Source of the DNA: Mycteria americana
Taxonomy: Eukaryota > Chordata > Aves > Ciconiiformes > Ciconiidae
Assembly (NCBI RefSeq): GCF_035582795.1
Contig: NC_134374.1
Coordinates: 24,939,798 to 25,003,797 of the forward strand
DNA: 64,000 nt
Reading direction: 5' to 3'
Shown here: positions 566 to 59,968 of the stretch, piece by piece
Position numbering within the stretch: the first letter of the stretch is position 1
Layout: each line of letters starts with the position of its first letter
The notes under the pieces: model-generated
Told to the model about the DNA's origin: nothing
The model's database searches: none
The model's input: only the letters and a program-made list of their open reading frames with translations
Made by a program: the position numbers and the translations under genes

Positions 566-11768
<11,203 letters not shown>

Positions 11769-12279: not shown

Positions 12280-14744
12280 ATGGAGGGCCGGCTGCCCTAC
12301 GACGACTTCCCGGTGGTCTTCCTGCCGCCCTACGAGAGCCCGCCCGCCTGGGTGCCGCCGCATGAGGTGAGGGGACGGGGTTGGGGACGGCGGCGGCCCG
12401 GGCTGGTGGCAGGCGAGCGGCGGGCGCCGCGGCCCGGCCCGGCCCGGGGGTGCGCGGCGGGTCCCGGCGCCTGACGGCCGCCGGCGCGTTGCTTTGCAGA
12501 GGGTGTACCACCCCGACTACAACAACGAGCTCACCCAGTTCCTGCCCCGCACCATCGTCCTGAAGAAGCCGCCCGGGGCGCAGGTGAGACCCCGCTTCCC
12601 CCCCAACCCCCGGGCTCCGTGGGGAGGCGCGGGTCCTGCCCGGCCCTTTCCTCGGCGCGGTGTTTTCCGTGTTGGACTCACGCTCGTCTTTCCTGGCAAA
12701 ACTCAGGTGATGCAGAGGCCGAGCTGCGGGGTGATGATAATCCCCGGTTGGCAGCAGCCTCGTAGCAACACAAGCGGTGAGGGCAACCAGGGGAGGCCGG
12801 GCAGGGTCCCTGGCACTTCCCTCACCCGGGGGCTTGGTGGGAGGGCTGGGGCATTGCTCCTGCCCTGCTGGGAAGGGCCGTGCCACAGAGGGAGGAGAGA
12901 GCTTGTGGGTGAAGTCCAGTATGTTGTGATGTGGAGCTGATAAAGGACCGGGAGCAGAGAGCCCCTCGGGTGTTCAAGGTGAGCTTGCCACGGGAGTCAG
13001 GAGAGGGGGACTGGTGCTTGCTGCTGCCTGGCTGAACGCTGCAGCACCAACGCCTTTGCTCCACCTGGAAGAGACACGTATCCAGTGGGAAGGGTCCTGG
13101 GCCAAAAGGTGACTGCATTTCACTGCTGGTTTCTCTCACAGCTGGGCTTCAACATCCGGGGAGGAAAAGCTTCGCAGCTGGGGATCTTCATCTCTAAGGT
13201 GTGTCTGTCCTTCTGCCATTCCTTCCCCATGTTCTGTCTGTTCCCTTGGGTGTTGCTGAGCCAGCTGGGTGTGCGTGGAGACTGTCATATGCTTTATATG
13301 CATCTCTGAACTCATAGCTGTAATTTGCCACGCACCAAGCAGCAGTCAGACGGTCCTGCACCATTTCCTGATCTCTCCCCAGCCCACGGAGCGTCGCTGG
13401 TGTGCTGCAGTCCCCACTCTGCATCCTCCCCAGTCCTGTGTGACGCCCTGGACGGGCACCGTGGGGAGGCTCTGGGGCTGGGCTGTCCTGGCTGAGTGGG
13501 AGGGAGGCCACAGTACTGGAGGTGCGGGGAGTCACTGCTGCTGCCTCTGCGCTTCCCTTTACAGGTGATCCCTGACTCGGACGCGCACAGAGCTGGGCTG
13601 CAGGAAGGGGACCAGGTGCTCTCGGTGAACGATGTGGATTTCCAGGACATTGAGCACAGCAAGGTGAGCATTCCTGCGGCCCAGCTGCTGGAGCAGGGAC
13701 AGGATGGGGAGTCCGTACATACACCATCTCCTTCTGGCCTCCCAGCCTGCACCAACTCAGCTGGTGGCACCACATAACCGATGCATTCCTCTTTCCTATC
13801 CTCCAGTCTGGTCACTGAGCAACTCTTTCTTCTTTCAGGCTGTGGAGATCCTGAAGACAGCCCGTGAAATCACCATGCGCGTGCGTTACTTCCCCTACAG
13901 TAAGTGCCCGCTAGCTCCGAGTCCAGTCACCTAGCAGCATTTCTCCTTGGGAAGCAGACTGCCGTGCATCCCTGCCGATTCCACCTCAGCTTAGCTGTTA
14001 TGGTGGTGTTAAGCTAGCAGCCTGCAGATCAGAAAGAACATTGGGCTTTGATTTGGGGATCAGGACAGCTACCAAGTCAAAACAGTAAGGACTGGCTTCA
14101 GCTGCCCACATAGAAAAACTTACAGAGCAGGGCTTAGCAACACAGTGCTGAAAGGTGGGATGATTGTTGAATGGAAACATTCATTTTAGAGCTGTAGAAG
14201 CAGCTAGTTATCCTTGAATAACACAGGAATTAGTTCTGTCACTAGTGGACCTATGCTGATGGTGGATGCTGCTTTGTGGTTTTTATCCCTTCCTAAGGAT
14301 GTTTAAATTCTGAGTGAGGGAAAAGACTGTATTAACTCTCGGTTTCTGCACCCATAGAGTTCATAGATATAAGGGGGGGAAAAATAGAGGTCAAGTCAAG
14401 CCAAACAAGGATTCCTCATAAAATGGAAACTGACCCTTAAGTGAAGAACGAAGAAGAATATGGAGCAGGGGAAGAGAGGACTTTAAACAGACTTTTGTTC
14501 TAAATGCCCTGGAATAACTTGAAATGACTGGCTAGGGTGTGAATGTGCTATTTTAAAGCCAGCTGCTACCCAAGAGGGTAGCAAACACTGCCTCTGCTTA
14601 GCGAGGTATAAACAGAATATGTTTTCCTTTAACATTTTTGCTAATTCCCCCTTGCCATCAGTGACTGCCTCTCCTGCCCTTTCAGCCTTGCCTTCTCTTT
14701 CCCTTCCAGATTACCAGAGACAGAAGGAAAGAACTGTTCACTAG
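12280..14744 (+). CDS. PDZD11: PDZD11, single-PDZ-domain protein (complete, 140 aa)
   Basis: Small cytoplasmic PDZ adaptor (AIPP1/PISP). The family binds C-termini of plasma-membrane Ca-ATPases, the Menkes copper ATPase and the multivitamin transporter, and interacts with PLEKHA7 at junctions. Exons: 12280-12366, 12500-12583, 13142-13198, 13565-13663, 13839-13899, 14710-14744. The sum is 423 nt, 140 codons plus TAG, the same length as human. The N-terminus reads PYDDFPVVFLPPYE. The PDZ carboxylate-binding loop LGFNIRGG starts at about residue 58, followed by KASQLGIFISK and QEGDQVLSVNDVDFQDIEH. The C-terminus is YQRQKERTVH. The start is the first ATG after the shared promoter and matches the family N-terminus. 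No defect is seen. Confidence 0.96.
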
Positions 14745-19908: not shown

Positions 19909-35811
<15,903 letters not shown>

Positions 35812-36594: not shown

Positions 36595-39500
36595 TTAGCT
36601 TTCCTCTTTGTCAGCCTCCTCCTTCTCATCTTCGTCGTCTTTCTCCCCCTTGAGTTTTTGGCGAGCGAATTCCTCTATGACGATGTCCTCCTCGCTGGAA
36701 GGGAGAGCAGAGCGTGGTGAGCCCGGGGAAGGCGGCCACGGGGAGCCCACCGTCCGGCTGCCCGGGATGCACCGCAGCGAAGAGGGAGAAATCCCTGCTG
36801 GCACCCAAACCCTGCTCCTACTAGGGGAGAATGTGGTGCTCGCCCCGGCCCCGTCACCCCCCACACTGCAGGGAACAGTCACTGTGAGCCACGGCCTGAC
36901 CCGAGCACACAAATCCAGGACAGATTGCTGGCTCGACTGCGAGCGTGCGTGACCGGAGGAGCTGGGCTCTCGCCTGCAACTTTTGGTGTTTTTTAAGACA
37001 ATATTTTGCATTGTCAAGGGAAAAAAGGGAAGGAAAAGAAATTAAAGTGGAGACAAAGAGATTAGTTACCTCCTTGCGAAAGGCGAGCGGCAGATGACAT
37101 CAAGGGAGAGCCGCAAAATGAAAAGTGGGGGAAGAAAACGGAAAAAAAGAGTCAGCAAAACCAATTCCAAGAGCTTGCGAATGTGAAACGACTTGGCAAA
37201 ATCTACAGGGAGCGATGGTGGGGACAGGCCAAGAGATTTCCTCCTCTGCAAGTTTAAATATCCTCGCTGAGCTGGGAAACTGATTGGCTTTGGTGTGAAA
37301 GCCTTGCAGTTGCAGCCCGAGTTTCCAGGCTCCAAATCCCTGTGCTCGTGTCCCGTTGCAGGGTGTAACCAGACACAAAAACAGCCTTTTGGGGCTTTGC
37401 AAGCCAGGGCCGGCTGCGGGGCTGGTTGGTGGCCGTGGCTGCCAGGCACGGCTGCCAGGAATGGGTTTGGCACGCTGCGGCTTCCCGGAGGGAAGCAACC
37501 CCAGCTGTGGCTTCAGCTGGAGTAAGCTCATGCTGTGGGAGGAGAAGAGGGCTCTGGCATTGGGGACCGTGCGGGGGCACGGGGCTGTGACCGGCGCCGC
37601 TTCCAGCAGCCAAGGGACCTCAGCGCAGGGCGGATGGGGACTGAGGCCATAGGGGACGTTATGTCCAGTGGTGACACTTGTGACTGGGAGACGCGGCACT
37701 GCCGGCTGCTTCCGAGGGACAAGGCGAAGGCTGGGCTTGCAGCAGGAGAGGCTGCTGTGTTTGCAGCAAGGGGAGTCGTAAAATAAGCCCTGGAAATTTG
37801 CAGAACATGTGCCGAGCCCAGCATTTGAATCCTCCCAGCCTGTGACAACGCTCCTGCTGCCTGTGCCACCATGGAGGGTGTCATGCTGTCTGCTGTGACA
37901 CAGGGGCTCAGGACGTGGAGGCCTGGATTATTTAATCCAAGGATGTAATCTCAAACTGGAATGGGGCATCGCATCCATCTGCGATGGATCTGTATGGTTT
38001 ATGTGTTAGAGGAAATATTGGCTTGAGGTATAAGGAAACATCTCTTTACCTTGGCTTATCTGTAGTCCATTGATAAGCAAAGCACAGGGAGGCAAGGATT
38101 GAGAGAGACACACATGCAGGTTAATAGAGAAAGGACATTTCAACTAACATCTCTTCTTAATGCTCAGGTGTTTTTCTCGAAAGCGAGACGTTGAGATGGG
38201 TGGCAGCCGGGGCACTGTGGGGAGCAGAGCTGCTCCCACGGCTGGTCCCAGACAGAGGGTGGCTGTCGCGCAGCCGGAGCAGCTCTGTCCGTCCCGCAGC
38301 CGGGGATGCTGGGCAGAGCAGGGCCCTTTGCACGGAGGCGGCTGCATCGGTGTTGCTTTAACCATTTCCCCTCTGAACGGGGACTGCCTCTTCCTCCCCC
38401 GCGTTTCAGCAGCATCCCAGGTGCTACTTACCGTCCGCAGGCTTCTGGTGCATGAGGATGACAGGCAGCTCAACACCAACGTCGCTGGAAGGAAAAGCAC
38501 TTCTTTCAATAAACCCGCCCAGCACCGCACCGTGCTTGGCCCCGCAGGCAGCTCCCTCCTTACCTGGAAGTGAGATCCCCCAGGATGCTGCAGCAGCGGG
38601 AGAGAAGGGACAGAAATCAGCCGAGGCAGAGGAGGGGAAGTGTTAGGCTTTGCTTTATAATAAGGTAGAAGATGATTTCTAATAGGGGTGAAGGGCAACG
38701 GCGATGGGGATGGAGGTGTGGGAGTCAGAGAGCAGCCCAGCGCCCGGCTGCCCCATGGCCCGGGGGAGAGGGCAGGGACAAGGGGATCCATGGCATGAGT
38801 CCCTTCGTCATCTGCCTGGTGGTATAAGATCCCGCAGCACAGCCCAAGGGGACAGTCCCGGCCCCCCGCGCCCGCAGAGCCTCACCCTCCTCGGGACACC
38901 ACCAGGTTGACCTTCACTTTGTAGGACACCAGGATGCCCAGCACCTCCTTGTCCATGCCGGGTCTCAGGCTAGGAGAAAGGCAGAGCGAGGCGGTGAGGT
39001 GGGCAGTGCTCCTCGCAGACCCCGTCCGCTCCCCCCGCAGCAGCTCCCGGGGCTGTCTCCGTGCCCCATTTCATGTGGGGTGCACCGGGGTGTCGCAGGA
39101 GAGGACAACACGCCGTGGCAGTAAAAGAGAGGGGAGGGCAGGTCACTTGGCTGAAGCCACAGAGCTCTTTCTGGAGGCCACTTGAGCTGCCTGAGCTGGG
39201 ATTTACTCCTGAGACAAGCCCTGATGCAGCTCTGCAGAGGGATACAGGGGCTTTGGACGATGGCTGGGACTGGGAGGCTACGTCTCCTGTGAGATGGAGA
39301 GGTGGGTCTGTGGCCATGTCACAAAACCCCTACATTTTCTAGCTGGATGGGGTGGGCTCAGGCACAGGAGGTGTGGGGGACCCTTGGTGGGAGCCCAGAG
39401 CATCCCGAGGAGCGGGAAGCTGTTGGAGGAGGGGAAGGCATGGGTCCAGCATGGGTCCAGCCATGGCGGGCAGCACGGGGAGCCCACCCGGCTCTTACAT

Positions 39501-42500
39501 GGTGGTGGAGGCCAGGTTGGTGTCCTCATGCTTGAGCTTGCCGTCGAGAGCGAGGCCTCGCTTCTCACGGTTGGCCGAGAGCGTGGGGGTGACGGAGTAC
39601 GTTTTGGAGAAGGTGGAGTTGGCTGCCACGTTCTCGCTGGAAGGGGTGGGAGAGGAGAGCTCAGAGCCAGCACCAGCCTGGCGGGTCCTCAGCACCCACC
39701 AGGGATGCTCAGCGTTGTGCCAGGCACCTGGGCAGAGCCAGACCCCCCCGCCGTGCCCTCCCCACGCAGCTGCCTGCACCCGTTTCCTCCTTTCGTTCCC
39801 TTATTCAACCACTTCTTTTTTCTACCCCCCCGCCTTTGCTGCAGCCCTCCTCCTTCTCAGGGGCGCCGAGGCTGTGGCTGGCCTCAGAGATGCAAAGCGA
39901 GGAGAGGAAGCAGCCGGGGAGCAGCTGCGCACCTTCCCCAGGGACCTCCCCAGCCGACACAGCTTGGGCTGAGAGGCACGGTTGTCCACAGCCTTCCCTC
40001 TCCTCTGCTTCCTCTGCATCTGCTCTTCTAAACCCGGTATTTTTGCTGCCTGGTGTAAAACCGTCTTCCCCACCCCCTCTCCCCATCTCTCTCCCCTCCT
40101 CCTCCTCCTTTCTCTTCCTCCCTCTGGCCGCGACGCCACGCCACCCCCAGCCCCTTTTTACTTACTTTATCTCCTCGGTGCACACAGTCTTCGTGTATTT
40201 ATCCAGCGAATAGAGGACCACGTCTGTGATCTGATCAACTGAGGAGAGACAAGAGGGCGCAGCGTTGGTGATGCGGCAGAGGCACGGGCGCCCAGTCCCC
40301 ATCTCCGACGGGGAGGCCAGGATGCGGTGGGTGCCGGGACGTGCCCCTCCTGCCCCCTCTCACCCGAGATCTTAATTTTTTTCACAATCTTGCTGGTAGT
40401 GTTGTTGATGTTGACGGTCACGTTGATGGGGTCTCCGTGGTAGTAGACCTGCGGTGGGAAGAGGCTCGGTTATGTGACCGGGCATCCCGGTCCCTGTCCC
40501 TGGGGACGCACGTGGTGGCACGAGCCAGGGGACAGCCCCTGTACTGACCTCCTTATCCAGGGAGGCTTCGAGGTGCAGGGGCTTGTCGGACATCATGAAC
40601 TGCCGGGTGGTCTCCGACTTCGGGGGTGGCCCCATCTTCAGGGGTGCAAACTGGATCTTGCGGATGATGAGGCGCACCGAGTTCCTGCGGGGCGAGAAGC
40701 CGTCACCCCCAGTCCCCCTGGCAGGGATGAGGTGACACGGCCTTCGAGGGGGACACGTCGGCTGTCTTCAGGGACATCACAGTGTCTCTAGCCGAAGGAT
40801 GCAAGCTGCAGCCTGCTCTTAGGACGTGGTGGGCGCTGACATGGGGACCACTGCCCCTCCTTTGGGCAAAGTACCCCATCCAAGCGTGGCACAGGCTGAC
40901 AGCAGGTCCTTGGCCTGACCCCTAAGCTGGCCACCCCAAAACGATCTGGTGGTTTGGTTCTAGGGCCATGGGGCAGGAAAGGGATCCCCTGCAAATACCT
41001 CTTGTGAATTTTCTCCTCCAGATTTTCAGCACAAAATCCTTTGACCTCGAAATCCACGCCGCAGGCCTGGGGGGACACGTATGTTCACTAAGCAGGAGGG
41101 CTCAGAGCTGCCTGAGGTTTACGTTCATTCCCCTTCTTCCTCCACTGCATCTCCAGACATCCTGGCCCCTACTCCAGACATCCTGGTCCCTACTCCAGAC
41201 ATCCTTCCTCCCCAGCCCTCACCCCACGGGCCACATCCCCATGAAAGAGAAGCAGCTCCCACAACTTAATGCCCTGCCAGAGAGAAGGGGTCCAGGGGAC
41301 ACGGGTTGGGGACAGCAGCTCACCTTTCCCACATCATCTGGTCCCGGCTGGAGGGTGACCGAGCAGGGCAGGTTGGTGGCAATCTGGGCAGAATAGGGAA
41401 AGAGAGAAAAAAGTAAACAAAGAGCGTGCCCAGAGATGAGCCCTGGTGCACACCATGGAGGTGTGCGGTCAGGAAGGGCTGAGCAGCCCCTACCTCGAAG
41501 GTGAAGGGGTAAGCGTTCTCCCCGAGCTTCTTCATCAGCTTCTCCTGCAAAGGAGTGAGGGTTTTGGGTGTCTGGTCCGGCACGGGTGGGAAGATCTGGG
41601 TGGTCAGGACATAGAGGTCCTTCCTGAAGGTCAACCCGATAACATCGAGGTCATCTCGGCCGTAGCGAAACGCGCAAGTCAGCGTCACGTACACTGAAGC
41701 CGGATGGAAACGGAGAGGAGCGGAGTTAGGGGAAGGGTGAGATAAAGGGAAGGCATGGGGGAAAGGGGGTGAGAAAAGAGGAAAGAAAGAAAAACTACTT
41801 TAGTAACTCTTTAGGAGAAATACGACCCTGTTATCAGCACCCAGACCTCAAACACCAAGTTAACAAGATTCATCACATCTTTCTGCGAGGCATGGGTAGC
41901 TTCAGGGCCGGTGCCCCAGGCAGAAAAGACGAGAAGAAAGAGGCAGCTTTCCTCTCCGGGCCAGCTACCATGGCACTGATGTACGATGAGCTGTAGACAA
42001 CCCGTTGCAGTTTTAACCTGATTACGGTCCCAGGTTGCTTGTGAGCTTTGGACCAGTTTCCATCCCTTCCCCTTAAAACGTGGGGGTTTGTGTCTTAATA
42101 CCTTTTCTGTCCTTTAGGTACTCTGGGTCGATCAGGCAGACGCCATCTGCAAACAAGCAGAGAAGAAGGGCCAGTAAGCTCGGCCGCCCAGGAAGATCCT
42201 TGCAAAAATACAGCGCTTTTTAAAGTCAAATAATCTGCTCGTCAGCTGGGAAGGTGACCGAGGGGAGCTGCCGGTCAGGGGGACGGCTGTGCCTCCTCCA
42301 GCATCTCCACCCGCAGCGTGGCTGGGTTGTTTTGCAAAGGGACTTTGTCCCTTTCCCCACCATTTTTCTGTGAGGGTATTTGCAGGAAAACAGGACGTTT
42401 GCTCCTCTGGAGCTGCCCTTGCTCCTCCTGCTCCAGTGGGAAGCAGAAGCGAGCAGCCACCGGCACAGGGACCGGTCTTCCTGGCCGCTCACTGCCCGAG

Positions 42501-43562
42501 CTTCCCCCTCCATGGCAGGCACGGCCCCACTCACCTACGGAGTCCACCGACTCCACGTGATCCACAAAGTCTCTCTTCCCCAGGTAGATGGATAGCTGGA
42601 GGCAGCACACGGTGAAAGGAGAGAAGGAAACGGGTTAGTGTTTGCCATGGAACTGGCTGAAATTTTGAAGCCCTGGGTGGTGTGGGAGGGCTCGTTAACC
42701 CTGCCGTTAGCGCGTTGGACCAGGCATGGCACGTAAGGATTCATATAGGGGTTTTTTTTTAATTTCTATTTTGAAAAGCAAGCCCTGCAGGTGACATCAT
42801 GGGAGGGATAGCAGGAATCAGTCAGATTTCAAAGGGAAGGGAAATCCAGCCCGCGTCCCACCGCACGGGCAGAGCCACCCCGGAGGAACCCCGCAGCCCC
42901 TCCACACCAGCACCTTGGGCTGACCCGCACCCAGGGACGGGGCGCACGGTCCCGTCTCTGCGTGCATGGACTCACCTTGCTGTTGGGGCTGGTCTTCTTG
43001 AACACCCTATGGAGGAAACACAGACGGGTTGGGAATGATCTCATCTCACCCTGGATGAGACTGGATGCAGCACAGCCCACGCCTGGGGCAGGCAGGGAGG
43101 GGGGGGCTGTTCATCTGCCCGGGACGAGGAGGGAGAGGGCTTCCCTGCAAGCTTGGTGCATCTCCGAGAGCTACGCCAGAGTGCATGGGATGTCCTGGCC
43201 TTGGGGAATTTGGTGTCCTGCAGATTCAGAGCCAAACCCGCCCTGTCTGCCTGCCCCGGGGGGTTGTCATGCTCCTGAGCTCAGCGTGTGACCATCGAGG
43301 AGGGGGTGCATTGGCTGGCTGTGGCTTACGGGCAAGTGAGAAAGCACCAACACGCAGAAGAAAAGATAAGGTGCTTTGCTGGCCCTGCGACGGCTTGCTC
43401 CATCTCGCTATGGCGAGCTCACGTACCCATCCATGGGGACAGCGGGTAAGGGGAGCCGGGGGGCTCGCTTTCTCCCTCTGCTCCTGCCCTGCAGCACCCT
43501 GCTCCATCCCAATAAAAAAAAAAAAAAGAAAAAAAAGACACTTACTTTGCTCCTTCTGCCAT
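36595..43562 (-). CDS. ARR3: ARR3, cone arrestin (arrestin-C), complete, 394 aa
   Basis: Binds light-activated phosphorylated cone opsins and ends signalling. Coding exons: 43546-43562, 42976-43006, 42535-42595, 42102-42146, 41494-41693, 41324-41383, 40999-41066, 40549-40684, 40364-40448, 40166-40238, 39499-39636, 38886-38969, 38564-38587, 38432-38484, 38050-38059, 36595-36694. The sum is 1185 nt, 394 codons plus TAA. The ATG follows a UTR acceptor (exon to 43591); the noncoding first exon is near 45047-45115. Seen: [14 protein letters not shown]; finger loop [14 protein letters not shown] at about residues 61-74; [31 protein letters not shown]; and the acidic tail [16 protein letters not shown]. 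The sequence is nearer ARR3 than SAG or beta-arrestins, and the order ARR3-RAB41-PDZD11-KIF4A equals human Xq13. Confidence 0.94.
38050..38059 (-). CDS. ARR3: ARR3 10-nt microexon
   Basis: The exon at 38432-38484 ends in phase 1 (GCGGACG), while the last exon (from 36694 down) must be entered in phase 2 to read [10 protein letters not shown] short exon with length 1 modulo 3 is therefore needed. The minus strand has ACTACAG, then ATAAGCCAAG, then GTAAAG at this place. Inserting it gives [17 protein letters not shown], which aligns with the family. Retinal S-antigen is known to have a 10-bp exon near its 3' end, so this architecture is expected. Confidence 0.85.
41152..41214 (+). repeat. Three 21-bp tandem repeats in an ARR3 intron
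   Basis: About three copies of TCCAGACATCCTGGYCCCTAC in a row, the last one diverged, in the intron between the ARR3 exons at 41324-41383 and 40999-41066. Confidence 0.8.
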
Positions 43563-49691: not shown

Positions 49692-52600
49692 ATGGCGGCA
49701 GCAAGCTGGTACCACCGGGACATCAGTCGGGTGGTGGCGGAGGAGCTGCTGGCCAAGGCCGGGCGGGATGGCTGCTTCCTGGTGCGGGACAGCGAGTCGG
49801 TCTCGGGGGCATATGCCCTCTGCCTCCTGTGAGTCACCTGCCTGCTGCTGCTCGCCGCTTCTCTCTCTTGTCCCTTGCCGGGGCCGCTCTGTCCCTCTCC
49901 CCGCTCCAGGCTCCAGGCACAGCAATCCCGGCACTGCCCCTCAGGCTGGCACTGCCAAACCCTTGTGGAAAATCCTTCTTTTCCACAGGGGATGTGGAAA
50001 GGGATGCCGGTGGGGCGCGCAGGGTGCCAGCTCTCTGGCACAGGGGTTTTCGGGTGATCCCCAAGTTGGACCAGGGGAAAAGCCTGTGTCCTTGGGAGCA
50101 GGCAGAAGCCTGGGCCAGCAGCCCTGCCCGGCACCAGGGCTGCTGAAGGGAGAACCCGAAATCCAGGGCGTGCCAAGCCCTTTCGGGCTGCCCGCCATCC
50201 CGGCCCCGGTGCGTGGGAGCGGGAGAGGCTGGCTCGTATTGCCCTCCCTCTGCAAAAACAAACATCCCCTCTCCCTCCAACCCCCAGCGCGGCCGCATCC
50301 GGGCCGTGACGCCCGCTGTTAACATCTCAGATGCCGGGACTTCAGGGCTGCATCCCCCGCAGCCCACGGGGCCCCCCGCCATCTCCACACTTGGGACCGG
50401 GCTTACAGCCCCTGAGAGCATTGCTGCTGGGGCTGCCTGCACCCTTCCTGCTGCCTGCACCCTTCCTGCAGCCCAGCGACACATCTGCGGCGGGGAGCGC
50501 GCGGGGCGGCGCCTCGGCGGCTTTGGCGGGATGCCACCCCCTTTCCTACGGCTGGCCTGGCCCGGCGCACGGGACAAATTGCAAACACATGGTGCTGAGG
50601 GGCGTCGGGGGGGTGCGGGGCATGCTGGGGGTTCAGCCGGCAGCCGCCCCAGCTCTGCCAGCATCCCGGCGCCGAGTCAGAGGTCGGGCCGATGCCAGAC
50701 GGGATGGTGGCACGGGCAGGGACGTGCAGTGGCCTCGGAGCAAGTACGACTGTGGTGTCGCAGCCACGGGGAGGGCAGCGCCGGGCTCTGTCTGGCCAAA
50801 ACCCCTCGGTGCCGTGCAGAGCCACGGGGCCGTAGGTACCGCAGCGAATACTGGCAGAGATGTGGCTGAGCGCCCTGCGTGCCGTGGCCGTGCCGTGGCC
50901 GTGCCCGCTGCAGGCAGGGTGCTGTTTGGAGGCAGGGGGACACCGCGCATCCTCCCCTGCAAACGGGTACAGACCCAGAGCTGAGGGTGATGCTTTTATT
51001 TCCAGAAATGAGAGCTCAGTTCCTCTCTCTGCAGAGGGGACGGGGCGTTTGCATCAGGGCTGGGTGCCAGGCACCCCCCACCGCAGCCACGCGTGTCGTG
51101 GGGGGCGCGATGGGGGACCCTCGTCTGCTCTCTCCCAGGTTCCAGCGGCACGTCCACACCTACCGCATCCTCCCTGATGACGAGGGGCTGCTCTCTGTCC
51201 AGGTGGGTGCAGCGGCGGGTGCCCAGAGGCTGGGTGCCGCTGGAGCGCGCTCCCTGCCCTGGCTAACAGCTCTGGGCGCTGTGCTGGGGTGGCCACCGGC
51301 TGCAAGCGGGGGCACGGGCAGGATGCAGGTGCGAGGGGGCCGGGGTGCTCAACTCCCCCGCCAGCCTCCGTGCAGCGCCCGGAGAGGTGGCGTCTGCCTG
51401 CCCTCCCCGGCACGCCAGCGCTGCGAGCAAGCGGTGCGGTTTGCTTTTTGCACGAGCTGCCTGCAACACCCAGCACGGCAGGATGCGAGCACTTTGCAGC
51501 CACCCCGTCGGCACGGGGCCGTCCGGGAAGGCTGCCTCCCCGCTGGCTCCACGGCTGCTGCCAGCCTGCCGAGGCAGCGCAGCAAAACGCTTGTCCCCTT
51601 CCTGCCACTGTCCCCTGCCCTGGCCTGGCCACACAGGACTGATCGCCACGGCATCTGTCCCCACAATGTCTGTCCTGGCCGCTGGCTCGGCCTCGCTTCC
51701 TCTCTTTGGTGTCACTTCACAGTTTCTCCTGGTACCTGGCTCTCTGCAGCCACCCCTTCTAACACCCTAAAAAGAGCATCCCGAGGGTCCCTAGGGAGCA
51801 GCCCTGTCTGCTGCCTGAGGCAGATGTCTCCGCACTCCTCTCCTTGCTCTGCTGCCCTGCCAGGGGCCGGGGTGAGCTCCCCATGGGGCCGGCGTCCAGC
51901 TGGCACCTACAGCTCATTTGGGCACATTTTGGGGGACAGACCCGCTCGACATGGCAAGCTGGTCCGCAGCCTGGCGAGGGGCTGCCCTGGCACGCGGAGC
52001 TGGTGAAGAGGGGGACATGATGGTGTTTGTTCCCTATCTGCCTCCCCAGACCATCCAGGGCATCCAGGCCAAGTGCTTCCGCACCCTCCCCGACCTGATC
52101 GGCGCCTACCAGCAGCCCAACAACGGGCTGGTGACGCCCCTGCTCTACCCCGTGCACCGGGCGAGGCAGGCGGCCGACGAGGACTCGGGTGAGCCGGGGA
52201 GGGGGCGGTGGGGACCGTGCCAGGCTGCGAGCGGGGAGGGGGTCCCGCTGAGCCGGCTGTCCTCTGCCCGCAGACGGGGAGGACGGCCGAGGCGGCGGGC
52301 ACGCGGCGAGCGCGGGCCCGGCTGGAGGAGCCGGGGCGGGCGCGTGGCTCAGCGCTCCCATCGCCGGCCGGACCCACATCTCGCAGCAGCTGCACCAGAG
52401 GCTGCAGGAGCAGGTGCACAGCAGGTAACGAGCCCCTGCCCACCCCAGGCTGCTGGAGGCGACGGGGTGGGCACGGCCACCCCTCCCTTGCCACGCTGGC
52501 ACCCTGGCGGGAGATCTTTCCAAAGATGCTCACCCGCCTTTGCAGCCCGGCCAGCGACTTCATGGGCTTCATGGCCGAGTACCTGAACCACCACCTGCAG

Positions 52601-55600
52601 CTGGACCTGGAGGCGCTCCGCCACGGGCACCCGCAGCTGCGCCATCTCAGCACCGCGCTCGTCACCGCCTGCCGGGCGCTGCACAGGCGAGTGTCCCGGC
52701 GGGGACCAGCCCCCGGGGTCACCTACCTCATCCCCGTCCCCTTCATGGTGCTTCATGGTGGCGGAGCATCTCCGCCGAGGCTCAGGAGATGTCCGTGCTG
52801 GCTCTCACCTGCTCCTCTCCTCCGCAGTGAGATCGACTTCACGCTGGCGGGTCTGGAGACGCTGGCCAGGGTGTTCGACCCCCCTGCGTCCCCTCGCAGC
52901 CCAGCCAGGGAGCAGGTGAGCCCCCCTCGGGCCGCCGCAGCCCCCCGCTGCCCGCAGGTGCCTTGTCGCATGTGACTGGGTGCAGCTGGTCTGCGGGGGA
53001 GGTGGTCGGGGTGGTTTTAGTGCCTGTTGGCACCCAAAGGTGCTGCACACCCCGTGGCGCTGCCGGTGGTCCCTGGGTGCTGTGTGTGCCGGGGTTCCCG
53101 CAGCTGGCAGAGGGGACCTGGCTCCCCGTGGCCTGGGACAAGCAGGGACTTGTTCCTGCACCTGGTCCAGGACGCGGCAGGGGGGAAGCTGCTTCCCCTG
53201 CCAGACCCCAGGGATGCCCACGTCTCAGGGTGCAGCCCGGACCCACAGGGAGGAATCCACCGGTCCAGTGCCACCGCGCTGCTCCAAAAATGTCCGTCCT
53301 TCCCCTCAGGGTCTCCTGACCAGCGATCCAGACCTGGAGCTGCTCCTCAACAAGATATCTACCGTCAACCATCTCCTCTCTTCGCTGGAGAAGAAGGTGC
53401 CTGCCCGCCCCGCGATGCCAGGCTGGGGAAGCCTGGATGGGCGCAGGGGGAGCACGGCCACTGCTGACCACGGCCACTGCTGACCACGGCCACCGCCCGG
53501 CTCCGCCGGTGCCCCGGGCTGGGGAACCTCACTCTGCTCCAGCAAACCCCTCACCTAAATTAAACCCTCCAGCAAAGCAAGCTGCCGGCGGTGGCACGGC
53601 CCCGGGGTTCCCCTCGGGGCAGGACAGGCTGGGTGACCAGGGCTCCCAGTTAGCCCAGTGTCCCCAGACCAGTGCCTGTCTCTCCCGCAGGTGCTGAAGT
53701 CGCTGCAGGAGACGGTGTCGAGGCACAACCTGGCGCTGCCCAGTGTGGTGGCAGTCCCCCCGCCAGCCGCCAAGCCCCTGGCCGTGCAGAGCTTCGAGGT
53801 GAGGGACGCGGTGGGGCCCCGGCGTCTCTGCTTGGGCAGGGCAGGCGCGGGGCCGCCCTGGGAACCGTGTCCCTGTCTGCAGGTGAAGGTGGGCAAGTCG
53901 CAGCGGGCAGCCCTGACGGTGGACGTGGAGTCGGGCACGGTGGCCATCACCAAGGCAGGCAGTGGGTCCCCGGAGGAGACCATCCCGCAGGACAAAAGTA
54001 AGGGGCTGCTGAGCTGACCCCCCACCGGCCACCGATGGGGTGCTGCGGGGCCGTGGGATTCCCTGGCACAGGCCTGATGCCAGAGTGATGGGCTGCAGAC
54101 CCAGTTGCACCCCAAGCCCCCGTCCCACACTGCCTGCTGCCCCCACGGCAGGAGGTGGGGGACCACCATTGCCCCCCTCACGCCTGGCGTTCAGTCCTGC
54201 AGCTGATCAAATACCAGAGCGTGCAGAGCAAGGTGAGGCTGGTGTACGACCGGGAGCCACAGAGGAGCCTGAGCAGAGACTTTGTCTTCCCCAGCGCCCG
54301 GGTAAGCGGCGCCGGCTGCGCTCACGGGGTGTCCTGGGGGAATGCGGAGCCGTCATGTAGCAATGCAGGAAATGAGTGGTCTCAGGGTTGAGACCACCCC
54401 TGCAAGCCGGCTCCTACGCCTGGGGGTGACGTCCCCCTGACCCCGGCACCTTCTGGGGTGCTGCAGCTCCTGGCTCCCCTTTGGGACCCTAAGACACCCG
54501 TATCGTCCCACAGAAGCGAGAGGCCTTTTGCCAGCTGCTGCAGCTGATGAAGATCCAGCACTCCAACCTGGACGAGCCTGACCTCATCTCGGTGTACGTC
54601 GGGACATGGAACATGGGTAAGGGGCCAGGATAAGGTCGCATTGTCCTTGGGAGGCTGTCATGGCTCGTCGTGAGCCCGGGTGGGTTTTGGGAGGTGAGGG
54701 CTTCAGGGAGCTGCCCCAGGAAACCTGAGGTCCAAGCTGGTCCTCAGTGGGAGGAGGAGGCCGGAGAAGACCCCAACTTGGCCGCTTTCGGGTTTGCCCG
54801 TCCCGTCGTGATCCACTTGGCCGGTGGCTGTCAGGGAAATGGAGGAGCTGGGGTACTGGGAGAGTTCTGAGTGGTAGCAGTAAATCCCAGCGTCAGTCTG
54901 GGACATGCATGGGTGAACCATGGGGCTGGCACGATGCTTCCCGTCCCCGGTGGCTCCTGGAGACGCGTAGGGTCTGGGGTTGGAGAGGAGCTCGGCGAGC
55001 CAGGCATGCTGTCCCCCCCGGTGACCCGCTGTCCCCTGCCCGCAGGCAGCACGCCGCCGCCCCGCTCCCTCGCCTCCTGGCTGACCTCGAGGGGCTTGGG
55101 GCGCACGCAGGACGAGACCACTGCCTGCATCCCCCACGACATCTACGTTATCGGCACCCAGGAGAACTCCCTGGGCGACCGCGAGTGGGTCGAGTTCCTC
55201 CGCGCATCTCTGAAGACCCTGATGACCATCGACTACCGAGTGGTAACGTCAGGACGCAGCCTGGACCCCTCCGGCCGTGCCTGGGGAGGCACCCGGTGCC
55301 GAGCAGGCTAAAGACATCCCCCGGCAGTCTCGGGGAGCTGGTTGCCAGCAGCCATCGCCCCAGGGCTCTTACCCCCGAACCCAGGGTCCTCTCCCACCCT
55401 AAATGCAGCCCAGGGAACCTCCTATGCCCCACGGCCTCCGTGCAGGGAGTGCCCTCCCCAGGAGCCACCTTTCAGGGATGGGTTGGCTCACCTTGCTGCT
55501 TCTCCACCCGCGTTGCCCCTCCGCAGGTCGCCCTGCAATGCCTCTGGAGCATCAAGATCGTGGTGCTGGTGAAGCCCGAGCACGAGCGGCGCATCAGCCA

Positions 55601-58600
55601 CGTCCACACCTCCAGCGTGAAAACTGGGATCGCCAACACGCTGGGTAGGGATGGGGACGGGGTGGCGGGGATGCCCCGGAGGGAGGGGGCAGTCTGGGGG
55701 CCATCCCAGGACCTCGGGGCCCCCCCCAGAGCTCAGTGCCTGGCACATCCCTGCAGGGAACAAGGGAGCCGTGGGCGTCTCCTTCCTCTTCAACGGGACC
55801 TCCTTTGGCTTCGTCAACTGCCACCTGGCCTCTGGCAGCGAGAAGACCCACAGGTGACGGAGGGGCGTGGGGGGACGGGGCTGCCCCGGGGCAGGTGGGT
55901 GTCTCAGGGGGCTGGAGGAGCCCTGAGGGGCTGTGGGGCTGTCCCTGTCCCCCTCCTGTCCCCACCTGGCAGGGGCAGGATGAGGATGAGGTGTCCCTGG
56001 GGTGGCTCACACGGTGCTGCTGTCCCCCCCACAGGCGTAACCAGAACTACAGTGACATCCTGCGTTCCCTGGTCCTGGGCGACAAGCGGCTCAGCGCCTT
56101 CGACCTCACCCTGCGCTTCACCCACCTCTTCTGGTTCGGGGACCTCAACTACCGCCTGGACATGGACGTGCAGGTGGGACCCTGCAGGCACTGCGGCTGG
56201 GGACGGTGGCACACTGGTGGCAGCACTGGTGCAGCCGCAGTGGTGAGAGGAGCTGGGGCTCACCACGCCTTCCTCTCCCGGCGCAGGACATCCTTGCCCA
56301 TATAACCAAGAAGGAGTTTGAAGCCCTCCTGGCTGTCGACCAGCTCAACTTGGAACGGGAGAAGAACAAGGTGTTCCTGCGATTCAGTGAGTGCAGGGGC
56401 AAGCCTGGGGAACACCAACGTGCACCATGCAAGCCCCTCGGGGCAGGTCCCTGGGCTCTGCGTCCCGAGAGCACGCAAGCATGGGGACAGCCAGAGGGGC
56501 CAGGGGTGCCAGCCATCGGTGTGAGCCCCAGATGGGGACCACGACACCCCATGGGGACTCTCCCTGGCTGGTTGCAGCTGTGGGGACAGGCAGGGATGCT
56601 GGCCCTGTGCCACTTCTGTGTCTTGGTTCCCAGGCGAGGGTGACATCTCCTTCCCGCCCACGTACCGGTACGAGCGGGGCTCCCGGGACAGCTACATGTG
56701 GCAGAAGTTCAAGCCCACGGGGGTGAGCTGCTGGAGCGTCCCACCAAGCTGCAGGACATCACCGGGGGACAGGGACGGCAGGCTCGGACTGTGCCGGGCG
56801 GGCTGCGTGGTGATGTGCAGCCCTCACGCCTCCGCCAGCCCGTTCCCTCCCCAAGGGGGTCCGGGCAGGAGGGAGCTCACTTTCTGGGCTGCTTTTCTGG
56901 GCTGGGGGGAGCCAGACCCGAGGGGGCACTGAAGCCAGCTGCTTTCCCCATTTGTAGATGAGGATCAATGTCCCCTCGTGGTGCGACCGCATCCTGTGGA
57001 AGTCGCACCCGGAGACCCACGTCGTCTGTAACTCCTACGGTGAGTGAGACCCCGGGGCCGGGGGGACTCTGGGGTGGCCAGCGCTGCCCGGGACCCCGGG
57101 GCTCAGGAACCGTCACCCAGCTGCCCCCTCCCGCCATCCAGGCTGCACCGATGACATCGTGACCAGCGACCACTCGCCCGTCTTCGCCACCTTCGAGGTG
57201 GGAGTGACCTCGCAGTTTGTGCCCAAGAAGGGTAAGGGGTTTGGGGTCTGTCACCCCCCGTGCCCGGTTTGGGGTGAGCCCTGGCTGCGGGTGCTCGGCT
57301 GGCACACGCCGACCCGCCAGTTCCTGCCTGCAGCTCCCGGATCCGGCCCCGAGCCCCTGGCCTGCATCGAGTGGGAGAGCATCGAGGTGATCGTGAAAAC
57401 GGCCAGCCGCAGCAAGTGCTACATCGAGTTTCACTCCTACTGCCTGGAGGGTGAGGTGGCCCCGCGGGGCGGGGGTGCCGGGGTGCCGGGGCTGTGCTGC
57501 GGGGGCGAGCCGGCCCCGGCTGGAGCTGTGTCCCCTGCTCTTCCCCGGCAGAGGCCCAGCGGAGCGGGGAGAACACCTCCCAGAGCTGCGACATCCCCGG
57601 CTTCCTCAAGCTGGGCTGGTCCGCAAAGCATCTGCCCGTGGTACGCACCGGGGCGGGTGGGCAGACGCTGGCCCCCCCCAGCCCTCGAGCATCCTCCTCC
57701 CTCCTCTTCCCCATCCCTCCCGCTGGCTCCGTACCCTGAGCCCCAAAGGGTGCCGGGGGCTGTCACCGTCCCCCCCAGGACAGAGCCGCCCCTGTGCCAC
57801 CCTACCCTGCGACACCCCTCCCCGAGCACCCCTCTCTCTGCGTGCAGCTGAACCCCATCCTGCCCGACCTGGAGTACCTGGGGGACCAGCACTTGCTCCT
57901 CAGCATCAAGGGTGTGGAGAGCTGCGAGTCCTACGGTGCGTGCAGGACGGTGGCGTGGGGGCCGCCATGGTGGCATGGGGGGTGCCAAGCATAGCCCCCG
58001 CAGGGCTCAGCTAACAGCCTGCTGGGTGGAAGGTTTTGCAGCTGAAGCTCGGCAGGAGGGACCCCGGCACCCACCCCGCTCCGGGGTGCCGCTGCGTACG
58101 GGGGGGCTTGCCTGCCCGCCGAGCTGCCCGGAGCGGGGGGTAACGCAGGCGTGCGCTGTGCCTGCAGGCGAGTGCTGCATCGCAATGAGGTCAATGATCG
58201 GCAGCATGGCCCAGCAGTTCGAGACCTTCCTCTTCCACCGCGGCGAGGAGACGGGCTCCATGCGCGGCTGGATGAAGGTCCGGGTCCCCAAGGACAGGCG
58301 CAGCACCCGCGAGAGGCTCTATGGTAAAGGCGGCCACGCACCAGCCCCCTCCCCTCGCCCTGGGCATGGGGACTCAGGGCCACGCTCGGGCACGGCATGG
58401 CTGAGAGCTGCCCATGCCCACGCTGCCCTGCTGGACCCCGGCCGCGGGCAGGGGCCATGCAGTGCCCGGTGGAGAGAGGCCAGACTTCGGTGCCTTTGCA
58501 GAGTGGATCAGCTTCGAGGAGGAGGATGCCGAGCCGGCGGCAGATGCCCCAACGTGCCCCAAGCCACCCCTGCAGCGCCTCAGGTACCCAGCTGGGCTCA

Positions 58601-59968
58601 GCCCCACCACGAGCCCTGGCCGTGGGGCGATGCTGAGCCCTCTCCCGCTGTGCTTCGCAGGAGCCGGCCCCGCAGCCTCCCGGAGTCGGCTGCTGGCTAC
58701 ACCAACCCAGCCTACTTCATCTTCGAGGGGGTCCCCAACGCATGGGCGCCGGCCCCCAGTGCGGGCAAAGCCCACAAGCAGCAGGCGGAGAGCCTGGGCG
58801 AGGGCCAGCGGCGCCGGAGCCCCCTCAGGGCACGGGTCCCTTCGCCCTCAGAGGAGGAGCGGTGGGGCGGCCGGCCCCGCTGTGTGCCAGGGGCCCCATC
58901 CCGTGGGCACCCGCTCAGCCCCCCGGGCGTGGGCCAGCAGAAGAGACCCAAATCGGCTGTGCTGGTGAGGGACGCACCGGGGCTGGGCGACTGCTCGCTG
59001 ACGGCGCTGCACATGGCCACCTGCCTGAGCCAGCTGGACCGGGCGTCCCCTGAGCGCAGAGGGGACAGCCAGAAGACCCTGCTGCACCAGACCCACAGCG
59101 CCCTGGAGCCGCCGCCGCGGCCCTGCCGGGAGGTGCCGAGGTGCATGCCGGATGCTCGCCAGCACGGCCGCCCTGGAGAGGTACTGCTGTGGTTCCCGTG
59201 GGGCTCTGGAGCTCAGCCGGGGGGCTTGGGAAGCTCAGGGAGGGGAGGGGACCTGCTTTTGGCCGTGGGGCCCCCAGCAGATGCTAGGTCCCATCCCCAT
59301 GGTGGTGCTCTGCCTGGTGGAGCCACCATGGCGCAGGCAGTGGGATGCGGTGGAAGGTGGAGGAGCAGCAATGTACCTGGTTCATGCACATGGGGTGAGG
59401 ACGGGAAGGTGGGGACTTCGTGGCCCTGGTGTGACACTGCTGGCGTGTGTCCTTGTTCTTCTTTCCCCAGTGGCCCTGCGACAGGGGCGAGCGGTCCCGC
59501 AGCGTTGGCGGGTGCCTGGGCCACCTTGGCTTGCAACAGGATGTGGAAGGGCTGCAGGAGCGTGGCTGGAACCACCTGGAGATCTTCAGGTACCCCCAGG
59601 CCCTGGAGCTCAGAAAGGGGGGCACGGTGCGGGCCAGCTCCTCTGGCCCTGGGATCCCTGGCAGAGCCCCATGCCCTGAGGGGGAGGAGAGATGAGCCTC
59701 GGGGTGGGGATGCACCAGGGCAGGGGCAGGAGGATATCAAGTCCCCACATCTCCGCGGATGCCTGGGGCCGTGCGGGCTCCCCGCTCCCTCTCGGGGGCT
59801 GCCCCAGCTCTTGCTCTCCCTCGCCGTGTGCGCAGAGATGTCACGGAGCGGGACCTGCTGGAGGCCGGGCTGCTCAGCCCGACCCATCCCCAGCTCGTCC
59901 ACGGCAAGCTCGGCGAGAGCACTGCGGTGAGCCTGCCGTGGAGACCTGACCTCGGACCCAGCGACTAG
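49692..59968 (+). CDS. INPPL1-like: SHIP2-type SH2-domain inositol polyphosphate 5-phosphatase (INPPL1 paralogue), 1151 aa
   Basis: Should remove the 5-phosphate of PI(3,4,5)P3 at the plasma membrane, damping PI3K signalling. Exons: 49692-49828, 51139-51202, 52050-52188, 52274-52424, 52546-52686, 52828-52915, 53310-53396, 53691-53798, 53883-53997, 54195-54301, 54514-54616, 55046-55242, 55527-55644, 55757-55853, 56035-56173, 56287-56386, 56634-56722, 56958-57039, 57142-57231, 57334-57450, 57552-57640, 57848-57935, 58168-58323, 58502-58583, 58661-59180, 59471-59589, 59836-59968. The sum is 3456 nt. Seen: SH2 with FLVRDS (Arg32); 5-phosphatase from GTWNMG (about 409) through FGDLNYRLD (585-593), PSWCDRILWKS (666-676) and SDHSPVF (696-702); C2-like region; TNPAYFIFEGVP (909-920); C-terminal SAM from about 1079. 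SAM marks SHIP2 (INPPL1), not SHIP1. The proline-rich region is shorter than in human SHIP2 (1258 aa). Introns are very short and GC-rich. The place beside ARR3 suggests a paralogue of INPPL1. Confidence 0.92.
53451..53498 (+). repeat. 16-bp tandem repeat in a SHIP2-like intron
   Basis: Three copies of roughly ACCACGGCCACTGCTG in the intron after the exon at 53310-53396. A similar two-copy 18-bp repeat (CTGCCTGCACCCTTCCTG) lies at 50433-50468 in the first coding intron. Confidence 0.7.

Follow-up and report, generated by a model that had tools for sequence, protein, structure and literature searches.

The DNA analysed here, a stretch of 64,000 nucleotides from Mycteria americana (contig NC_134374.1, positions 24,939,798 to 25,003,797 of the forward strand; hereafter, the window), contains a gene resembling INPPL1, which encodes the inositol 5-phosphatase SHIP2. 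Its 27 exons run from a start at 49692 to an end at 59968 and form, as checked by script, one continuous reading frame of 1151 codons closed by a stop; the claim of an earlier, sequence-only reading that a complete gene lies here, its exons joining in phase, is upheld by this single open frame and by the splice sites. All 26 introns end in AG; 25 begin with GT, the exception being intron 5, which is of the GC-AG type. The GC donor of intron 5 lies at 52687-52688, with CAG before the junction and GCGAGT after it. We conclude that this 27-exon SHIP2-like gene is real and, its SAM part aside, apparently intact. Its features are as follows.

49692-49828, 51139-51202, 52050-52188, 52274-52424, 52546-52686, 52828-52915, 53310-53396, 53691-53798, 53883-53997, 54195-54301, 54514-54616, 55046-55242, 55527-55644, 55757-55853, 56035-56173, 56287-56386, 56634-56722, 56958-57039, 57142-57231, 57334-57450, 57552-57640, 57848-57935, 58168-58323, 58502-58583, 58661-59180, 59471-59589, 59836-59968, forward strand: coding part of the SHIP2-like gene, 27 exons (in-frame join, splice-site check)
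49707..52109, forward strand: SH2 domain, residues 6-87, exons 1-3, with the FLVR arginine R32 (Pfam)
53781..54289, forward strand: first C2, or PH-related, domain, residues 300-375, exons 8-10 (Pfam)
54601..57188, forward strand: 5-phosphatase domain, residues 409-703, exons 11-19, with the catalytic base D587, equivalent to D607 of human SHIP2 (Pfam, alignment)
57408..58271, forward strand: second C2 domain, residues 743-850, exons 20-23 (Pfam)
58704..58715, forward strand: NPAY motif, residues 910-913, exon 25 (alignment)
59495..59899, forward strand: degenerate SAM remnant, residues 1077-1129, exons 26-27 (Pfam negative, score against a model of INPPL1 SAM domains)
59590..59695, forward strand: alternative 3' end on retention of intron 26, giving a SAM-less form of 1142 residues with its stop at 59693-59695 (read-through, likeness to stork models)

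The encoded protein has the features of the SHIP family: an SH2 domain with the FLVR arginine, a 5-phosphatase domain with the catalytic base and the contacts to the 3- and 4-phosphates, the SHIP-specific C2 domains (Pfam PF24150 and PF24147) flanking the phosphatase on both sides, and an NPXY motif. The closest solved structures are phosphatase-C2 chains of SHIP2 (E 1.9e-235), with SHIP1 next. The NPAY motif and the catalytic signatures, which had been read as intact, are indeed invariant across a 20-row alignment with INPPL1 (alignment A1). In the L4 loop of the phosphatase, R662 and N664 are retained, and I663 stands where human SHIP2 has T683. Searching with the window protein yielded 863 matches, the best 120 of which were examined; NPAY is kept in 119 of the 121 proteins formed by these and the window protein.

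Pfam and alignment thus agree with the sequence-only reading on the SH2, 5-phosphatase, C2 and NPAY elements, but the SAM domain that it added to them is present only as a degenerate remnant. Pfam finds no SAM domain in the full-length window protein, nor in its last 85 residues at E values up to 10; the intact C-terminal SAM that is a trait of INPPL1 is therefore lacking. In the same stretch, Pfam recognises the domain in ostrich (4.8e-12) and tuatara (2e-09), and the curlew protein, at 0.028, misses the cut-off. With a model made from INPPL1 SAM domains alone, the window protein scores 30.8 bits, compared with 65.4-69.9 bits for seven intact members. Across the 121 proteins, seven (ostrich, kiwi, emu, three turtles and tuatara) reach at least 60 bits, 10, the window protein included, fall between 20 and 60, 34 fall between 0 and 20, and the remaining 70 lack a positive match close to their end; many of these gene models are partial or end early, so the absence of SAM from a given row is not proof of its loss. 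Judged by these scores, the SAM of the window protein is a decayed remnant, and the domain appears to have decayed in neognath birds. The tail produced by reading through intron 26 resembles the ending of stork models P0001 and P0008, and the read-through form is 98.6% identical to a Ciconia boyciana model (1126/1142); across models from storks (Ciconia, Mycteria), the identity is 98-99%. Crocodile model P0094 stops ahead of the SAM exons, as do 16 turtle models (sea turtles and Pelodiscus, final KYH: P0074-P0084, P0088, P0092, P0093, P0095 and P0100); these early stops may represent an isoform, an annotation error or independent loss.

Over the phosphatase-C2 unit, the window protein is identical to human SHIP2 at 335 of 459 positions (73%), whereas the figures for ostrich and coelacanth INPPL1 are 419 (91%) and 408. 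It is closer to SHIP2 than to human SHIP1 (257/453; human SHIP1 itself has 265/453 in common with SHIP2), which is not what an INPP5D orthologue would show. Within its own kind, it matches ostrich at 93 of 98 SH2, 300 of 313 phosphatase and 105 of 108 second-C2 residues, and tuatara at 91/98, 279/313 and 96/108, with 84/194 in the C-terminal part; 461 of 462 phosphatase-C2 residues are common to the window protein and a stork model. Such conservation of SH2, phosphatase and C2 domains between bird and tuatara is what would be expected of a working paralogue.

Eight members of this group were compared residue by residue, positions being those of human SHIP2. All eight retain D607 and N684, and seven retain R682, tuatara having K, like SHIP1. 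Q676 is replaced in every member (by F in seven and C in one), and T683 is uniformly I. H674 is Q throughout, as it is also in coelacanth INPPL1. In the C2 domain, S827 is G and V838 is C in all eight, SHIP1 likewise having C at 838. According to PMC5550278, H674, T683 and N684 of SHIP2 share a hydrogen-bond network in L4, N684 contacts the 4-phosphate, and R682 makes contact with the 3-phosphate or else docks on D613/D615. The substitutions in L4 (Q676, T683) and C2 (S827, V838) would predict an unchanged substrate with altered gating or motion of the loop.

In domain order (SH2, first C2, 5-phosphatase, second C2, NPAY, SAM position), the window protein is laid out like SHIP2. It differs in that its first C2 domain is ten residues shorter directly after FEV, and the motifs PPLPPR and PPPDFPPPPLP, present in 9/9 INPPL1 rows, occur in 0/121 proteins of its kind. 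The acidic pre-SAM stretch of INPPL1, which we take to be a UIM, is also missing. With SHIP1, it shares the SH2, C2, phosphatase, C2 and NPXY elements; SHIP1 is given without a SAM domain in PMC11121230, whereas the ostrich, kiwi, emu, tuatara and three turtle members possess one.

To judge by their names, the best 120 of the 863 matches come from birds, turtles, tuatara and one crocodile. Many were automatically named 'phosphatidylinositol 3,4,5-trisphosphate 5-phosphatase 2-like', and others are called 'phosphatase 2', 'SHIP2 phosphatase' or 'SHP2A phosphatase'; the predicted '5-phosphatase 2-like' of birds and turtles at NCBI is the same gene, under automatic names only, none of which flags a third SHIP gene. 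A second search, scored on the SHIP2 phosphatase-C2 unit, gave 2157 matches, and the best 120 of these comprise INPPL1 of mammals, sauropsids, amphibians and coelacanth together with rows lacking a name. Comparison of the two sets of 120 by representative names shows that at least 16 sauropsid species hold both genes: Harpia, Numenius, Struthio, Apteryx mantelli, Dromaius, Columba livia, Lonchura striata, Chamaea, Taeniopygia, Ficedula, Sapayoa, Emydura, Natator, Caretta, Platysternon and Sphenodon. The check that the sequence-only reading proposed, for a separate INPPL1 in the same genome, thus comes out positive in relatives of Mycteria americana. Paired rows (window-like gene/INPPL1) include Struthio P0036/P0162, Apteryx P0037/P0177 and Sphenodon P0086/P0180. 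In 13 of 13 species for which both sizes are available, the contigs bearing the two genes differ in size (29.8 and 225.6 Mb in Struthio, 101.9 and 349.2 Mb in Natator), though the assemblies may differ in some. A search with the tuatara SAM stretch matched eight of the 16 candidates it considered (tuatara, three turtles, two kiwi records, emu and ostrich); it did not reach INPPL1 either, and so says little about fish or mammals.

For phylogenetic analysis, the window protein was combined with sequences picked for species spread: 15 proteins of its kind and 22 INPPL1 matches, each set drawn from the 120 listed in the respective search. The full-length tree (39 rows, 1323/1645 columns, LG+G4, with a SHIP1 fragment as outgroup) resolves a clade of 16 rows holding the window protein, with support of 100/99, and an INPPL1 clade of 22 rows with support of 95/97. 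In the phosphatase-C2 tree (37 rows, 462 columns, LG+C20), from which the INPPL1 rows of Geotrypetes and Columba were dropped, the cutting motif not having been found, the corresponding clades of 16 and 20 rows both have support of 100/99. Unconstrained trees from both alignments place the window clade outside all INPPL1 rows, coelacanth included, in keeping with the expectation that the protein would fall outside the INPPL1 clade. On these protein alignments, the separation of the two clades is firm.

The neighbours of the gene were located in the window by tblastn with human probes.

36652..43008, reverse strand: cone arrestin (ARR3) gene, divergent from the SHIP2-like gene (tblastn, structure match)
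19912..35799, reverse strand: RAB6-like gene at the RAB41 position (tblastn, structure match)
12280..14741, forward strand: PDZD11 gene (tblastn)
7352..11765, reverse strand: KIF4A gene, motor-domain exons (tblastn)

The joined arrestin exons have cone arrestin 1suj as best solved structure (549.9 bits), followed by beta-arrestin-1 (511.7 bits), which confirms the ARR3 named in the sequence-only reading. Its RAB41 holds as a RAB6-like gene: the top solved structures are RAB6A, the best, and RAB6B, with RAB41 absent among the structures listed, and the gene may be RAB41 by its position. The human order on Xq13 is ARR3-RAB41-PDZD11-KIF4A, and no SHIP gene is known there; INPP5D lies with SAG on human 2q37. 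As had been proposed, the locus differs from the RAB6A/ARRB1 locus expected of an INPPL1 orthologue.

The RAB6-like gene itself contains, on the reverse strand, two alternative exon pairs that seem spliceable (30045-29938/26219-26112 and 23123-23025/22521-22423). The first shows the I/V and A/T signature that tells RAB6A' from RAB6A in human, so the alternative exon may predate the split of RAB6A and RAB41; a counterpart of the second is not known to us in RAB6A. A literature search on alternative exon pairs of the RAB6-like gene found nothing.

Overall, we conclude with good confidence that the window gene encodes a third inositol 5-phosphatase of the SHIP family, separate from INPP5D and INPPL1, and is most likely the ohnolog that stayed with ARR3, RAB41, PDZD11 and KIF4A. 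It is extremely unlikely that this is instead the bird's only SHIP2, an INPPL1 gene moved next to ARR3. The plain name 'phosphatase 2' of the chicken copy, P0056, would suit such a move; the separate clades in both trees, the co-occurrence of the two genes and the lower identity to human SHIP2 compared with ostrich INPPL1 reject it for the relatives. Nor is the gene likely to be turning into a pseudogene in birds. The decay of the neognath SAM and the varied C-terminal ends could be read in that way, but 27 in-frame exons with splice sites, and SH2, phosphatase and C2 domains as close to those of ostrich and the stork model as described above, make it very improbable for the gene body, the SAM part excepted. 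The claim of an intact paralogue kept in sauropsids is accordingly supported by clades, co-occurrence and domain conservation, its SAM part being degenerate.

Origin of this third gene in the vertebrate genome duplications is, we think, probable; an ancestral segment carrying SHIP, arrestin and RAB6 genes would have been multiplied early in vertebrates, with one copy keeping its ARR3-side neighbours. This reading follows from what we take to be the paralogy of ARR3 and RAB41 with the ARRB1 and RAB6A genes near INPPL1. An unlikely alternative is a later duplication of INPPL1, on the stem of either the sauropsids or the amniotes, whose product came to lie beside ARR3 and diverged rapidly afterwards. 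A retrocopy of the intronless kind is ruled out by the 26 introns, and it would take a coincidence for the copy to arrive beside presumed relatives of both RAB6A and ARRB1; the unconstrained trees, with even coelacanth INPPL1 inside, also speak for the older split. Several observations nevertheless weigh against the overall reading of a third SHIP ohnolog. All of the best 120 of the 863 matches are sauropsid, with no fish, amphibian, squamate or mammal member among them. A topology forcing the third gene together with sauropsid INPPL1 is only just rejected at full length (14 INPPL1 rows, p 0.044), that with amniote INPPL1 is weakly rejected on the same full-length alignment (p 0.019), and on the phosphatase-C2 unit the sauropsid grouping is not rejected (13 rows, p 0.23); the sole outgroup is one human SHIP1 fragment on a long branch. 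The placing of human INPPL1 with RAB6A and ARRB1 on 11q13 is an assumption of this reading. Moreover, D613 is changed in three of the eight members compared, and D615 and R649 in two each, these being residues that in SHIP2 hold L4 open or link it to C2, and the decayed C-terminus could reflect relaxed constraint in neognaths. The trees do not settle the date of the split, which rests more on the gene neighbourhoods; we infer that date, as we do the loss in mammals, where the third gene is not known to occur.

As a third SHIP protein, the product would be expected to dock through its SH2 domain on phosphotyrosine of activated receptors, with the phosphatase-C2 unit seated by its C2 domains on the inner membrane leaflet. 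There, the putative enzyme would remove the 5-phosphate from PI(3,4,5)P3 to give PI(3,4)P2, damping AKT signalling, and the NPAY tyrosine would recruit PTB-domain proteins; we infer this activity and these partners from the domains. With the proline-rich and pre-SAM stretches missing and the neognath SAM decayed, targeting would depend mainly on SH2 and NPAY, not on SH3 or SAM partners.

The third gene has already been annotated automatically by NCBI, yet it is undescribed in the literature searched: no paper on a third SHIP gene was found, by title and start of abstract, among the matches listed. A 2024 review speaks of 'the two SHIP paralogs' (PMC11121230), and PMC12154601 treats INPPL1 interactions and zebrafish inppl1a. 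One table row of PMC3628982 names a newt transcript after Anolis '5-phosphatase 2-like', and gene identity is not resolved in that row.

A wider picture, possible but tentative, is that jawed vertebrates inherited three SHIPs, the third persisting in birds, tuatara, turtles and crocodiles but not in mammals, and that it shed the proline-rich and pre-SAM docking parts of SHIP2 and, in neognaths, the SAM domain, while gating its active site differently. The third gene could confuse naming, as the 'phosphatase 2' of chicken illustrates, and in chicken work it could compensate for disturbed INPPL1 or INPP5D. It offers a natural comparison for the purpose of the SAM and proline-rich parts of SHIP2. 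If the picture is true, PI3K signalling in sauropsids would be subject to an additional brake, wired in another way, that is left out of models based on mammals.

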